Below the pieces are notes generated by a model that was not told where the DNA came from, searched no databases, and saw nothing but the letters and a program-made list of their open reading frames with translations. From Patescibacteria group bacterium (GTDB lineage: Bacteria > Patescibacteriota > Dojkabacteria > SC72), in contig DOZG01000082.1 of the NCBI GenBank assembly GCA_003518125.1, positions 4,593-15,059 on the forward strand: a stretch of DNA of 10,467 bases, read 5' to 3'. This document shows positions 426 to 7,966 of the stretch, in pieces. The translations under genes were made by a program, and so were the position numbers. Position 1 is the first letter of the stretch. Each line of letters starts with the position of its first letter.

Positions 426-453
426 ATTATACCAAACTTAGGCTTCGTGCAAA
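426..453 (-). promoter_or_regulatory. Promoter candidate for the partial gene after rho
   Basis: On the minus strand, TGG-TATAAT (extended -10; hexamer 426-431, TG at 433-434) lies between the rho stop and the next ATG. A -35-like TTTGCA (448-453, 4 of 6 consensus) sits 16 bases upstream, inside the end of rho. Transcription would start near 419, giving a leader of about 21 bases. The downstream gene could therefore be expressed independently of rho. Confidence 0.45.
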
Positions 454-1703
454 GTTGCTAAGAATTCCTCATTGTTTTTCGTTTTCTTAAGCTGACCTAC
501 TAATACTTCTGTAGGATTCTCATTTGGATTAAGCACCTCTAACATTCTTCTAATCCTCCAAGATTGATTCAATACATCTTTGCTAAGTAGTAACTCTTCA
601 TTTCTAGTACCAGATGCTACCACATCAATAGATGGATATATTCTCCTATTAGCAAGAGCTCTATCCAAATGAAGCTCCATATTACCCGTACCTTTAAACT
701 CCTCATATACAAGATCATCCATTCGACTACCTGTTTCTACAAGTGCAGTCGCTACAATAGTGAGACTCCCACCCTCTTCAAAGTTTCTGGCAGCACCAAA
801 AAACTTTTTAGGTGGATACAAAGCTGCTGGATCGAAACCACCAGATAATGTTTTACCAGATGTAGGCATTGTAATATTGTATGCTCTAGCAAGTCTAGTA
901 ATACTATCCATCAAAATAATGACATCTTCGCCCCATTCCACCATTCTTTCTGCCTTTTGTAATGCCATCTCAGCAACTTTACAGTTCTGTTCCGGTAATT
1001 CATCGAAGTTGGAAGCAAATACTTCCCCTTTAACAAACCTCTTCATATCCGTAACCTCTTCAGGTCGTTCAGCAACAAGGACTACCATAAGTTTTGCTTT
1101 AGGATGATTCTTAGCAATACCTGCTGCGACATCTTTCAGTAACCAAGTCTTACCAGCCTTAGGAGGAGATACAATCATAGACCTCTGACCAAAACCAATT
1201 GGAGCAAGAAGATCTATAATCCTAGTAGAAATAATCTCTGAGGTTGTTTCAAGTTTAATTTGCTTATTTGGGAAAATTGGTGTCATTTTCCTGAACTGAG
1301 GCCTTTTGGCAGCATCTGCAGCCGGTTTACCATAAACAGTATCTACTCTTAAAAGACTTAAATACTTCTCCTTCTCTTTTGGTAATCGAGCTGGTCCAGA
1401 TACTTCATCCCCAGTTTTGAGACCAAATTTCTTAATCTGTGAACCAGAGATATATACATCATTCTCCCCAGGAAGAACACCATCTGTCCTTAATACACCA
1501 TGAGATCCATCCTTTTGAACTTCAAGTAACCCTTCTACAATAATGAAACCATCTTTCTCTGTTTTTTTCTTCAATACTTCAATAAGAAGCCCTCTTTTGG
1601 GAAGTTCCATATAATTCTTTAACTCTAAAGTAGTAGCCTCCTTTCTTAATTCAGCAAGACTCATACTCTCATATTCATGAATGGTTTTTGATTTTTTTAC
1701 CAT
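438..1703 (-). CDS. rho: Transcription termination factor Rho
   Basis: Rho is the hexameric RNA-dependent ATPase/translocase that terminates transcription on naked RNA. The 421 residues match the usual length. Order: SAP-like Rho_N domain (about 13-48), cold-shock RNA-binding domain (about 50-122), then the RecA-type motor. Visible motor motifs are Walker A PPKAGKT (180-186), the ERPEEVTDM segment with presumed catalytic E212, Walker B DVIILMDS (260-267), the Q-loop region SGKTLSGG (282-289), the R-loop [11 protein letters not shown] (336-346) and SGTR with presumed arginine finger R367. The motor is fully conserved, so the protein should be active. One oddity is in the RNA-binding domain, where the usual GFGFLR/GYGFLR-type strand reads GSHGVLR (66-72). 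The ATG at 1703 has only a weak AAAG ahead of it, but the Rho_N domain begins directly after it. A dedicated promoter lies about 50 bases upstream, after the terminator of a non-coding RNA. Confidence 0.98.
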
Positions 1704-1756: not shown

Positions 1757-1786
1757 AGTATAACTGAAAAAAAACTCTTAAGTCAA
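1757..1786 (-). promoter_or_regulatory. rho promoter
   Basis: On the minus strand TTGACT (1781-1786, 5 of 6 consensus) is separated by 18 bases from TATACT (1757-1762, 5 of 6). The predicted start is near 1750, giving rho a leader of about 47 bases. The -35 box begins only seven bases past the T-tract of the preceding terminator, so rho and the upstream RNA appear to be separate transcription units. Confidence 0.7.
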
Positions 1787-1792
1787 TACTTT

Positions 1793-1826
1793 AGAAAAAG
1801 GGATCGGTACTGCCCCAACCGACCCC
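1793..1826 (-). terminator. Intrinsic terminator of the non-coding RNA upstream of rho
   Basis: On the minus strand GGGGTCGGT (1826-1818) pairs with ACCGATCCC (1808-1800). This is a 9-bp stem with one G.U and a 9-base loop, followed immediately by TTTTTCT (1799-1793). It is a textbook intrinsic terminator. The 5' arm can alternatively form the smaller hairpin AACCG/CGGTT (1830-1826 with 1821-1817), which would exclude the terminator stem. Confidence 0.8.
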
Positions 1827-2037
1827 GGTTTCTTCCCACTAATGTAGTGGAGAGAAATCGATGTGTATCTAGTGATACTTCCCATCTTCTCATCCTTAGA
1901 CTCAGATGTATTTATGATACCCCAAGCCCAGGGACGAAAAGATCGGTTTCTTAGTCTTATCCTTTTGCCCAGAAGCGCTTGTGACACTCCAGACAAAGGG
2001 ATAAAACTAAGATATCCACATCGATTCTTAAAGAAAG
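1794..2037 (-). ncRNA. Uncharacterised structured RNA, about 244 nt, with duplicated hairpin
   Basis: A consensus promoter and an intrinsic terminator bracket a highly foldable stretch. Predicted minus-strand folding has five helices. P1: 2026-2017 pairs with 1865-1856 (10 perfect pairs). P2: hairpin 2011-1950, 13 pairs, a C.A mismatch (1998/1963), 7 pairs, bulged U1971, 7 pairs and loop CACAA. P3: hairpin 1943-1884, 12 pairs, a C.A mismatch (1931/1896), 7 pairs, bulged U1904, about 6 pairs and loop CAUAA. P4: small hairpin near 1877-1866. P5: 1850-1845 with 1841-1836, extendable through another C.A mismatch. The terminator stem follows. P2 and P3 align along their whole length. No RNase P, tmRNA or SRP signature was found, and 6S RNA would be a single rod, which this is not. 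A 72-codon minus-strand reading frame (TTG start, stop at 1778) crosses the region but looks accidental. The family is unknown to me. The boundaries are inferred from the promoter and terminator. Confidence 0.7.
1884..2011 (-). repeat. Tandem homologous hairpins (P2 and P3) inside the non-coding RNA
   Basis: Hairpins 2011-1950 and 1943-1884 are adjacent, separated by the linker AAACCG (1949-1944), and are diverged copies. In the upper half (from the C.A mismatch to the loop), roughly two thirds of positions are identical and most differences are transitions. Loop, bulged U and mismatch occupy equivalent positions. Equivalent base pairs differ by compensatory change: C1992-G1969 against U1925-A1902, U1995-A1966 against G1928-C1899, and G1985-C1977 against A1918-U1910. 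Confidence 0.7.
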
Positions 2038-2043
2038 TAGTAA

Positions 2044-2072
2044 ATTATACAGCTACTTTTCATAACTGTCAA
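2044..2072 (-). promoter_or_regulatory. Consensus promoter of the non-coding RNA
   Basis: The minus strand has TTGACA (2067-2072), exactly 17 bases, then TATAAT (2044-2049). This is a perfect match to the housekeeping sigma consensus in both boxes and in spacing. The predicted start is near 2037. It is the strongest promoter in the window and implies an abundant transcript. Confidence 0.88.
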
Positions 2073-2265: not shown

Positions 2266-3621
2266 TTAGAGTTGTTTTAGATAGGAGATTTTCTTAATCT
2301 CCAAACCTTTCGCACCCTTAATCTTCGCACGCCCTACAATAGCATTCTTATACCCAACCCTCCCAGATTCTTTTAACACACTTTCCGAGCCCCATGACCC
2401 CCTAACTTCTCCAGTAAGTCCAATTTCTCCAAAATATATAGTGCTCTTATTTAATATCTTATCTCTTGAGGCAGATTTAATAGCCGCACATATAGCTAAG
2501 TCTAGAGCAGGATCTGAAATATTCAAGCCCCCTACCACATTCACATATACATCCTTATTTCCTAAAAAACAACCACCTCTTCGACTAATTACCGCACAAA
2601 GCATATCAAGTCTTGGCCTTTTTATACCATTAGCAACTCTCCTTAAAGGTCCAGTAAAACCACCCTCTTCTCTCTCAGAAACCAACGCCTGCACTTCAAC
2701 AAAAACAACTCGAGATCCTTGTAGTACAGCGCCGATTGCACTTCCAGACACTTTATGATTATCCTCCAAAAATACCAAAGATGGATTCAATACTTCGATT
2801 AATCCCTTAGAACTCATTTCAAACACACCAATTTCATTCGTAGAACCATATCTATTTTTCATACCCCTTACTATCCTATACTGATTAAACTTTTCACCTT
2901 CAATATTTAAAACACAATCTACAATATGCTCAAGAATCTTAGGTCCCGCTACATCACCCATCTTATTAATTTGACCTACTACAATTATCGGAGTACCAGA
3001 TTGTTTAGCAGTACGAGTCAGTATGGTCCCAGATATCCTTACTTGAGAGACACTTCCAACAAAACTTCTTGATAACTGAGACGACATACTTTGTATAGAG
3101 TCAACTATTACCAAGTCAAAATGCTTTTTGTTAATTAGCTTACTAACAGCATCAACATCTGTATTATCTGTAATAGATAATTTACGAAATTTACTAGAGG
3201 ATTTCCCACCTCCTACACGCTCCAACCTAGAGTAAAGTTGTGATTGAGATTCTTCCCCACATACATATAAGATATCCTTATTCTGAATAATTAAATTGGC
3301 TGCTACTTGAAGAAGTAATGTAGATTTACCTACCCCTGGTTCTCCACTTATTAATACAATCTCACCTTCTACAAAACCACCACCTAACACTCTATCTAGT
3401 TCAGAAAAGCTCGTACTTAAACGGTTATTGGAAGCATATTTATTAGAGGTCTTCTTATTAATATCAGTAATCGGCTTATAGCTAGCAGGTTCACCACTAT
3501 TAACTCGGGAGATTTCTGTAATTTCTTCAAACTTTTCTAAACTACCCCATTGACCACAGGCAGAACATTTACCAGACCACTTAGGAAACTGAGCTCCACA
3601 ATTAGAACAGATATATTTCAT
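2266..3621 (-). CDS. radA: DNA repair protein RadA (Sms)
   Basis: RadA is the RecA-like, DnaB-type branch-migration motor that helps process recombination intermediates. All domains are present in 451 residues, the usual size. They are an N-terminal C4 zinc finger (C5, C8, C19, C22), Walker A GEPGVGKST (93-101), Walker B LVIVDSIQ (170-177), the RadA-specific motif KNRYG (255-259; usually KNRFG, a conservative F-to-Y change) and a Lon-protease-like C-terminal domain with GEIGLTGEVR (398-407). The frame opens only two residues ahead of the first zinc cysteine pair, so the ATG at 3621 is well placed. It lies 6 bases after the clpC stop, consistent with co-transcription. A TATAAT (3627-3632) overlapping the clpC stop could also give a nearly leaderless radA transcript. 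There is no Shine-Dalgarno sequence worth the name. No convincing terminator follows. Confidence 0.97.
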   Translation of the reverse strand: MKYICSNCGAQFPKWSGKCSACGQWGSLEKFEEITEISRVNSGEPASYKPITDINKKTSNKYASNNRLSTSFSELDRVLGGGFVEGEIVLISGEPGVGKSTLLLQVAANLIIQNKDILYVCGEESQSQLYSRLERVGGGKSSSKFRKLSITDNTDVDAVSKLINKKHFDLVIVDSIQSMSSQLSRSFVGSVSQVRISGTILTRTAKQSGTPIIVVGQINKMGDVAGPKILEHIVDCVLNIEGEKFNQYRIVRGMKNRYGSTNEIGVFEMSSKGLIEVLNPSLVFLEDNHKVSGSAIGAVLQGSRVVFVEVQALVSEREEGGFTGPLRRVANGIKRPRLDMLCAVISRRGGCFLGNKDVYVNVVGGLNISDPALDLAICAAIKSASRDKILNKSTIYFGEIGLTGEVRGSWGSESVLKESGRVGYKNAIVGRAKIKGAKGLEIKKISYLKQL

Positions 3622-6191: not shown

Positions 6192-6686
6192 ATGGACGAA
6201 ATTACACCTTTAGAGCATTCTCAGAAGAGATTAGAGGGGAGTAAAATAACACTTGACGCTGCAGAATGGAAACTAGATGAGAATAGAAGAGAGGAGCTAT
6301 TAAAATATAAAAATACTTTAAAAACAACACTGGCTAATTCTTCAGCTAGTAAGTATATTCCTATACCAAATACAGTCCATGATCTTACTAAAGCGAGTAA
6401 AGCATTAAAAATTCGATGTATGATGTTAAACACAAATCAATTTGAAAAACCTCAAAAAGTTCCTATCGACAGAATTTTAATGTGTTTACAATTAGCCGAA
6501 GTTTCTGTAGATGATCCTTCTAAGGTTTATTTCCCTTATGGATTTACTAACGATAATAAAGAAAATGTTATTACTAACGTATTCATGAATATAGAACACT
6601 TTGAGTCTTTAACTAGAGAAATTGGAGGAGCTTTTGATAAAGATATGGTATATAACCAAACAGTAGAACAACAAAAAGAGGAGTAA
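6192..6686 (+). CDS. Hypothetical protein, 164 residues, only plus-strand gene
   Basis: I do not recognise this protein. It is hydrophilic, with no signal peptide or membrane segment, and is probably cytoplasmic. The first 50 residues are rich in Lys, Glu and Leu and likely helical. The middle (IPIPNTVHDLTKASKALKI) and a later part with YFPYGF and aromatic residues look globular, and the tail is acidic and polar. Evidence that it is real: a complete frame with its own promoter candidate upstream and a terminator hairpin at its stop. The frame on the other strand is shorter and lacks signals. The frame extends five codons upstream to a TTG at 6177 preceded by GAAGAG, an alternative start. I prefer the ATG because the predicted transcript begins only a few bases before the TTG. 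The gene diverges from clpC and converges on rpsA. Its orientation makes it the odd one out in the window. It could be a lineage-specific family. Confidence 0.7.
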   Translation: MDEITPLEHSQKRLEGSKITLDAAEWKLDENRREELLKYKNTLKTTLANSSASKYIPIPNTVHDLTKASKALKIRCMMLNTNQFEKPQKVPIDRILMCLQLAEVSVDDPSKVYFPYGFTNDNKENVITNVFMNIEHFESLTREIGGAFDKDMVYNQTVEQQKEE

Positions 6687-6701
6687 ATATACTCCCCTTT
6701 T
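6674..6701. terminator. Bidirectional terminator between the plus-strand gene and rpsA
   Basis: GGAGT (6680-6684) pairs with ACTCC (6691-6695) around a 6-base loop. After one mismatch (6679/6696) the stem continues as G-C and four A-T pairs (6678-6674 with 6697-6701). The flanking A-run and T-run supply a U-tract on either strand, so the element can end both converging transcripts. It overlaps the stop codon of the plus-strand gene. Confidence 0.6.
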
Positions 6702-6721
6702 CTCTTAACTAAGTAAATATA

Positions 6722-7966
6722 TTACTTAATCTCTTCAGTAATTGCCTCACTAACCGCTTCAGAAAGCTCTTCTTTGGTGAGTTCAGGCTTCTTCTTTACT
6801 ACTTTCTTTACTACTTCATCACCCTTCTTCTGGTCTACAGCCTTCAAACTTAAACCAAGATGCCTTTCTGTAGAAGAAATAGATAAAATCTTAACCTTAA
6901 CCTCTTGACCAACACTTACAATATCTCCTGGGTTTTTAACAAGCTTATCAGAAAGTTCAGAGATATGTATAAGGCCATTAAGACCCTTACCTATTCTTAC
7001 AAAAGCTCCATACTGTACAACTTTTTGTACTTTACCACCAACAATATCACCAACCTTAAATTTAGAAATTGCTTTAGCCCACGGATCCATTTGTAATCTC
7101 TTGATAGAGTAAGCAACCCTTTTACCGGCATCAGAAATACCAATTACCATAACCTTGATTGGATCTCCTACCTTATAAAGAGCACCTACATCCTCTACCT
7201 TATCCCATGATAACTCTGAAAGATGTACTAAACCCTCAAGACCTTGAGCATTGATAAAGATACCGTAAGGTGTAATACCACTAACTGTACCCTCTAACTC
7301 ATCACCCTCTTGAGTCTTTCTCAATGTCTGCTCTCTTTGAGCTGCATCCCCTTCTTGAGTTACTCTCTTCTCAGAAAGAATAATTCTATTCTTTTCCCTA
7401 TCTAACTCTATAATACGAGTCTTAATCTCCTCTCCTACCAAAGAATTCAATCTCTGTTGAACCTTAGAAGAAATATCCTTTCCAACCTGTCTTACACCAC
7501 TAGAATATACTCTAGTAGCATCAAGTTGAGATGTAGGAATAAAACCCCTAATACCTTGACTAATCTCAACAATTAAACCACCGTTATTAGCTTCTACTAC
7601 AACAGTCTCAACAACTTCACTCTTTTTCTTAGCTTTCTCTAGATTAAGCCAAGCACTAGCCTGTTGAGTCCTTCTAATAGAAAGTATTAATTGTCCCTCA
7701 TCATCTTCTGGTTTAACAACATATACTAGAACTTTGTCTCCAGAAACTAGTTTAGTCCAATCAAGAGTATCACTCTTGAGCTCCCTTCCAGCAATAATAC
7801 CTTCAGATTTGTAACCGATATCAACGATTACTAAACCGTCTCTAATATCCATTACGGTTCCTTCTACGATATCACCTTTGGAAAATTGTTTTATTTGTTT
7901 GGACTTATCATCTAAATATTCATCGATTTGTGAATATAGATCTTTATTTATATCTTTTTTTGCCAT
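6722..7966 (-). CDS. rpsA: 30S ribosomal protein S1 (four S1 domains)
   Basis: S1 is the ribosome-associated RNA-binding protein that helps load mRNA. The 414 residues hold four OB-fold S1 repeats at about 28-98, 115-200, 218-291 and 303-375. Repeats 3 and 4 are the most canonical (GLEGLVHLSELS at 242-253, GLNGLIHISELS at 328-339, PYGIF and QYGAF cores). The Lys/Glu-rich tail after 376 is probably disordered. Gamma-proteobacterial S1 has six repeats. Four, with the last pair best conserved, is typical of Gram-positive-like and reduced lineages. Short S1-repeat proteins of other function exist, but the N-terminal pair followed by two strong repeats favours RpsA. The ATG at 7966 lacks a good Shine-Dalgarno sequence. 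A strong extended -10 promoter 72 bases upstream gives a leader of about 64 bases. It converges with the plus-strand gene, and its end overlaps a small AAGTAA/TTACTT dyad. Confidence 0.92.
   Translation of the reverse strand: MAKKDINKDLYSQIDEYLDDKSKQIKQFSKGDIVEGTVMDIRDGLVIVDIGYKSEGIIAGRELKSDTLDWTKLVSGDKVLVYVVKPEDDEGQLILSIRRTQQASAWLNLEKAKKKSEVVETVVVEANNGGLIVEISQGIRGFIPTSQLDATRVYSSGVRQVGKDISSKVQQRLNSLVGEEIKTRIIELDREKNRIILSEKRVTQEGDAAQREQTLRKTQEGDELEGTVSGITPYGIFINAQGLEGLVHLSELSWDKVEDVGALYKVGDPIKVMVIGISDAGKRVAYSIKRLQMDPWAKAISKFKVGDIVGGKVQKVVQYGAFVRIGKGLNGLIHISELSDKLVKNPGDIVSVGQEVKVKILSISSTERHLGLSLKAVDQKKGDEVVKKVVKKKPELTKEELSEAVSEAITEEIK

Follow-up and report, generated by a model that had tools for sequence, protein, structure and literature searches.

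Titrating RNAs of the CsrB/CsrC type are stand-alone molecules that carry a varying number of protein-binding hairpins. The HK022 put and lambda nut RNAs have hairpins, some in tandem, near a promoter together with a boxA, whose consensus is GnTCwTTnA. To our knowledge, class-wide structurally selected RNAs without a known family are rare. The window, which is the whole stretch of 10,467 nucleotides analysed here, comes from a member of the Dojkabacteria and contains two tandem hairpins, P2 (2011-1950) and P3 (1943-1884), on the minus strand. They are part of a small RNA gene that is present in most Dojkabacteria genomes examined and in at least one phage. In the window, radA and rho flank a separate unit of about 240 nt on the minus strand that contains both hairpins, and the predicted fold of 2080-1795 (minus strand) has a z-score of -9.5. 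The features of the locus, in the direction of transcription, are:

2266..3621, minus strand: RadA, upstream (NCBIfam TIGR00416, over the cut-off)
2044..2072, minus strand: putative sigma-70-type promoter TTGACA-17-TATAAT, 12/12 (consensus match only)
2026..2037, minus strand: boxA-like leader CTTTCTTTAAGA, one mismatch to GnTCwTTnA (sequence match)
2017..2026, minus strand: 5′ strand of the closing helix P1, AAUCGAUGUG (fold and inverted repeat; by reading, in the nearest relatives only)
1950..2011, minus strand: arm P2 (fold; 66.3 bits to the arm model, P2 being among the sequences of the model)
1884..1943, minus strand: arm P3 (fold; 51.8 bits to the arm model, P3 being among the sequences of the model)
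1856..1865, minus strand: 3′ strand of the closing helix P1, CACAUCGAUU (fold and inverted repeat)
1830..1856, minus strand: small hairpin (fold; by reading, its letters differ among homologues)
1800..1826, minus strand: 3′ hairpin with the loop UGGGGCAGU, followed by U5 (1799-1795), a predicted intrinsic terminator (fold and sequence)
1757..1786, minus strand: second promoter-like site, before rho, TTGACT-18-TATACT, 10/12 (consensus match)
438..1703, minus strand: Rho, transcription termination factor, downstream (NCBIfam TIGR00767, over the cut-off)

The 161-nt stretch of P2 and P3 has a predicted folding energy of -70.5 kcal/mol, as compared to -38.4 (sd 3.7) for shuffled sequences (z -8.7), and none of 200 shuffles is as low. 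When trimmed to 56 nt, P2 and P3 share the same minimum-energy structure with a base-pair distance of 0, the nearest of 2000 shuffles being 8. Their identity of 34/56 exceeds that found in 2000 dinucleotide shuffles (at most 25) and in 5000 random hairpins that preserve the structure and the pair make-up (at most 32/56). The likeness of the two hairpins, which had been proposed in a sequence-only reading of this DNA, is thus confirmed. The 24 common pairs comprise 11 that are the same, 6 with one-sided and 7 with two-sided changes, and standard pairing is kept in all. The predicted fold agrees with the earlier description in the C.A mismatch, in the loops CACAA and CAUAA, and in the bases (13 and 12 bp). 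In contrast, a bulged U was placed after 7 bp, below a top of 6-7 bp, whereas the predicted fold has 10 bp, then the bulge, and a 4-bp top.

Arms from other loci show the same pattern of change. In a MAFFT alignment of 44 arms, with the structure taken from the same sequences and with shuffles that disregard kinship, 96.3% of the cells are paired (72.2 when shuffled), two-sided change occurs in 12 of the 18 pairs (14 of 500 shuffles get there), and the covariation score is 0.656 versus 0.194 (0/500). When the partner is slid by one column, the score is 0.154 or 0.207. For 79 arms fitted to the model, in an alignment that is biased towards structure, 97.0% are paired, 13 pairs show two-sided change, and the score is 0.681. 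The earlier claim of selection on structure, made from two hairpins of one molecule, agrees with these scores. As judged from the aligned sequences, the arms appear to be under selection for structure and to have a common ancestor. The hairpin shape is kept while the letters are changed, and the RNA therefore very probably has an important job.

The constant signature of the arm includes an unpaired C in the middle of the helix (79/79), a G-C pair (79/79), and C-G at two pairs (75/79 and 79/79). Tandem wobbles are also present, U.G in 74/79 arms (otherwise C-G) and G.U in 77/79 (otherwise A-U). The C.A mismatch, for which conservation had been predicted, is thus conserved in its unpaired C, but opposite it stands A in 32 arms, U in 27, C in 18, and G in 2. 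A candidate U.N mismatch is outside the signature because it is pairable in 68/79 arms. The apical part is between 3 and 45 long, and CAYAA is local, occurring in just 12/79 arms, which argues against the pentaloop as a recognition point.

Arms before the terminator were counted at 67 loci with a rule that undercounts at times, and number one in 54, two in 12, and none in L161 (phage). A full reading (L219) shows three arms in L107, which the rule scores as two, and G025 and G040 each have a second arm beyond the stretch judged. With a single arm in 54 of the 67 RNAs, the two equivalent binding sites envisaged from the window are not a requirement. When compared with the arms of single-armed RNAs, P2 is on average 79% identical to those of its own family and 71% identical to that of family f3. 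P3 is 59% identical to its single-armed counterparts in families f2/f4 and 52% to P2, and within one RNA P2 and P3 are 48-61% identical. P2 is like the single arms of relatives and P3 is unlike them, which suggests an old duplication with losses in the case of the window. The suggestion of an ancestral duplication therefore holds as to one ancestor for both arms, with the amendment that the duplication of the window looks old. Tandem arms in family f5 (L034, L037) are 81 and 84% identical, those of L047 91%, and those of L204, L212, L213, and L219 57-72%. At these other loci, the identities point to further arm duplications, or to homogenisation.

The arm covariance model, built from 44 arms including P2 and P3, matches 78 of the 85 genomes of the class (Dojkabacteria). 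Among the matching genomes, 61/78 have one arm match and 17/78 have two, or once three. The two matches of G055 are on separate contigs. On the second contig (L216:4019-4073, plus strand), the second arm copy has no 3′ hairpin, and the gene just downstream of it resembles a copper repressor (a match to the RicR family that stays under the cut-off). The seven class genomes without an arm match are G017, G019, G054, G060, G062, G066, and G084. G017 and G060 have no rho match either, and in G019 the contig stops about 100 bases short of rho. Upstream of rho in G054 (L303), another structured-looking stretch (by reading) has its own promoter-like site, and is perhaps a far-diverged version of the RNA.

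A search of 379 genomes of the phylum found the arm in 35, of which 31 are within the class and 4 outside. Because 14 candidates per genome were scored, absence in other classes is weak evidence. A second arm model matches 5 of 8 genomes of a second class, and in G007, a single contig of 733,750 bases, it finds one locus, which is two-armed. DNA search gives long matches within the window's family, and the 3′ hairpin class-wide. The pattern scan of named genomes comprises 64 stretches, by title 40 from Dojkabacteria/WS6, 6 from Patescibacteria group, 1 from Microgenomates, 16 from "(uncultured) bacterium", and 1 from Conexibacter. The Conexibacter match (L097) and the viral matches to a relaxed pattern, L163 and L164, are chance by context and are left out of the counts. 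The distinct loci number 68, or 67 without the chance one, and two of these are phage stretches.

A similar promoter is found by script at 62 of the 67 homologous loci. Within 40 nt of the -10 box of these 62 leaders, GnTCwTTnA occurs exactly in 26 and with at most one mismatch in 46, as compared to shuffle means of 0.6 and 11.3 (maximum 19). The boxA consensus is therefore present in the leader, although the copy of the window has one mismatch. In 58 genomes, the combined promoter and boxA pattern occurs at 32 places in 30 genomes, 28 at the RNA and 4 elsewhere, and the reversed pattern occurs at 3. The rrn leader of G007 does not serve as an rRNA control for boxA in this lineage, since it has no promoter by the pattern used and its five boxA-like matches (at most one mismatch) in 489 bases are uninformative. 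In L259 (minus strand) and L261 (plus strand), some 300 bases away from the 1501-1544 match, a further promoter-boxA unit has a terminator-like hairpin end and no long ORF; it is perhaps a different small RNA gene. L263 (minus strand, G000:C24:4105-4147) has a promoter-boxA and a long leader, followed by a tRNA and a 347-aa ORF. Candidate DnaA-box-like TGTGGATA/TTATCCACA are present near the promoter and at the RNA 5′ end in many loci, such as L050-L054.

The 3′ hairpin has the loop GGGCAGU in 67/67 loci, which were picked by a near-exact pattern. In 25 further loci found through the arm, reading shows the 3′ hairpin in 10, the loop on another stem in L210, and neither in 14. The 3′ part is therefore less universal than the arm. 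In several loci without the constant 3′ hairpin, a U run comes after the arm itself (by reading). Reading of L039 reveals an additional hairpin in which a different stem bears the GGGCAGU loop. The occurrence of this loop on other stems in L039 and L210 suggests that the loop is weightier than the stem. The complement of the loop in G007, an 8-mer with 7 copies versus 3.6 expected, led nowhere, and the loop's resemblance to the 23S P-loop region is short and within chance.

Phage contig L162 (IMG/VR) contains, at 2299-2608 (minus strand), a promoter, a boxA-like stretch, an arm (46.5 bits), and the 3′ hairpin, and its -10 box, TAGTAT, is weak. The RNA adjoins the genes for RecT, an exonuclease, and replication initiation, and is upstream of these DNA-metabolism genes. 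Phage contig L161 has the 3′ module only, at 10760-10835 (plus strand), near and upstream of a RecE-like exonuclease gene and with a terminase gene 9 kb off.

The gene neighbourhood was judged by the first three downstream ORFs at 63 bacterial loci (66 minus L097, L161, and L162). Downstream of the RNA is rho in 52 and rplJ in 5; 2 loci have other genes there, 3 show nothing, and 1 was missed by the ORF rule. Both arrangements occur in family f9, with rho downstream in G063 and rplJ in the five rplJ loci. For the rplJ and unlinked cases, rho is elsewhere in the genome (G044, G050, G056, G059, G070, G047, and G053). In the second class, the RNA comes after the Lon gene in all four loci examined (Lon was confirmed by library check in one), rho is elsewhere in three of the four genomes, and G189 has no clear rho. 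A tRNA-Cys follows the RNA on the same strand in two of these four loci. The count of the gap before rho covers 68 distinct downstream stretches, 48 of them with a measurable rho start. The gap from terminator to rho holds a promoter-like site (at least 10/12, by consensus match only) in 42 of these 48, as compared to a mean of 2.7 and a maximum of 7 in shuffles. The linkage of the RNA with rho is thus strong but breakable, and may reflect an old gene neighbourhood. Linkage to the origin, considered in G007, led nowhere; the skew minimum is at 54.8 kb and the RNA at 725.7 kb of 733.75, about 63 kb apart if circular.

Known RNA families do not include the locus. With Rfam 15, no family reaches its curated threshold in the window, and the best match over the arms is MIR5380 at 23.6 bits (threshold 150). 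Twelve loci scanned at relaxed settings give no family at threshold, and nine at the curated threshold give tRNAs only. An L20_leader match where the S1-like gene of the window ends (6663-6802, minus strand; 27.9 bits, threshold 58.7) is likely chance. The tmRNA (RF00023) and RNase P RNA (RF00010) identities are ruled out by the presence of these RNAs elsewhere in the relative G007, the latter as class A at 160.8 bits. The SRP RNA (RF00169) has no match in the window, and in 28 relatives none over the cut-off and one below it. In a scan for an SRP core motif, which matched 23 of 38 genomes, almost every match has two mismatches; a single place in G034 has one, and a single place in G040 has none. 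This exact match coincides with the weak RF00169 match of G040, and represents either a genuine SRP RNA or a contig from a contaminant. The Ffh RNA-binding (M) domain PF02978 is found in 0/19 relatives (G000-G011, G031-G037) and in 14/14 controls; loss of the SRP core from these relatives is possible. The 6S RNA (RF00013) has no match in the window or in 28 relatives, which is weak evidence because its model finds 6S in only 5 of 14 control genomes. L10_leader matches neither the window nor any of the 12 loci scanned, including L050 and L054 of the rplJ group. Literature searches, including PMC8172020 and PMC8321541, found no description of the RNA in the sources within their scope, outside of which are most subscription journals and bioRxiv. 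This is a new RNA family, with no Rfam match, and tmRNA, RNase P, SRP RNA, and 6S fail to account for it. Its novelty is judged from three things: it is broadly conserved, Rfam lacks it, and none of the known house RNAs tested explains it.

The locus is rather likely to be a stand-alone, trans-acting small RNA gene of Dojkabacteria, with arms that are docking modules for a conserved partner. Its own strong promoter would drive expression of the small RNA, the boxA-like leader would probably shield the untranslated transcript from early termination, and the transcript would end at its own terminator hairpin. The RNA would then act in trans. Each arm may be a rigid helical docking module that a conserved partner, most probably a protein, reads mid-helix. 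The signature read would be the invariant unpaired C and, about seven positions on, the tandem U.G/G.U beside the invariant G-C. By analogy with RNAs that hold or titrate a protein, more arms would give more docking sites, so that arm number may set the docking valency, and the partner may be sequestered or scaffolded. The class-wide strong rho linkage speaks against this proposal, since a pure trans RNA does not need it, and so do the 14 of 25 further loci without the constant 3′ hairpin.

As a cis-acting leader or attenuator of rho, the RNA would use its arms to sense something and decide passage through the terminator into rho. Rho in 52/63 loci, together with a boxA-like leader and a terminator that suit an attenuator, favours this, but the separate promoter-like site in 42/48 loci does not. 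Such a leader would also be expected always to precede rho, but rplJ or unrelated genes are downstream in 7/63 loci with rho elsewhere in those genomes, and the second class has it after Lon, with rho elsewhere in 3/4 genomes. Because rho has its own promoter-like site and the RNA is kept where rho is not adjacent, a trans-acting RNA is likelier than a rho leader, which is considered unlikely. That the RNA stands in for 6S RNA by binding RNA polymerase is suggested by the failure to find 6S in 28 relatives and by a helical RNA with a strong promoter and one locus in G007. The fold has no central open bubble and the 6S model no match, and this role is judged quite unlikely. A nut- or put-like antitermination element, in which boxA and arm modify RNA polymerase for terminator read-through, would explain the order of promoter, boxA-like stretch, and hairpin, and the phage L162 copy precedes replication genes on the same strand. 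However, the transcript has its own terminator, and the next notable protein gene is on the opposite strand in f46 (2/2: L199, L200) and in L058; such a function is decidedly improbable.

The absence of a canonical SRP RNA over the cut-off in all 28 relatives could mean that this is the SRP RNA of these bacteria. Since PF02978 is found in none of the 19 relatives and in all controls, that RNA has no known partner, and its loop and core are unlike SRP domain IV, which makes the identity very improbable. Inverted repeats arising by chance, or no more than a tandem terminator, could be considered because hairpins are common near terminators, but the covariation, the spread, and the shuffled controls contradict them, and they are scarcely credible. 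A broader and more tentative possibility concerns a deep branch of Patescibacteria where 6S RNA and the SRP core both go undetected, the 6S model succeeding in 5/14 controls only. The RNA could there have housekeeping rank, as a global regulator or an RNP core that has no known counterpart and that phages have borrowed, and its arms could dock either RNA polymerase or a protein specific to the lineage. The hosts are tiny, mostly uncultured bacteria. In view of the undetected Ffh RNA-binding domain (0/19 genomes) and the phage-borne version, the partner of the RNA may reveal a process that these small cells need.

Compared with known systems, the RNA resembles CsrB/CsrC in being a stand-alone RNA with hairpins of varying number. 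It differs in the lack of GGA in its loops, which are CACAA and CAUAA in the window, in a constant part that is mid-helix, in having mostly one arm, and in giving no Rfam match. Like 6S RNA (RF00013), it is small and helical and has a strong promoter, but it lacks the bubble in its fold and a match to the model. Ribosomal protein leaders of Rfam are comparable in that rplJ is downstream of the RNA in 5 loci, whereas L10_leader does not match. The HK022 put and lambda nut RNAs share the hairpins near a promoter and boxA, the tandem arrangement, and the existence of a phage version. In contrast to these, the RNA described here is a host gene with its own terminator and a changing neighbour. The newness is that of the RNA family, and the mechanism may be of a known type.
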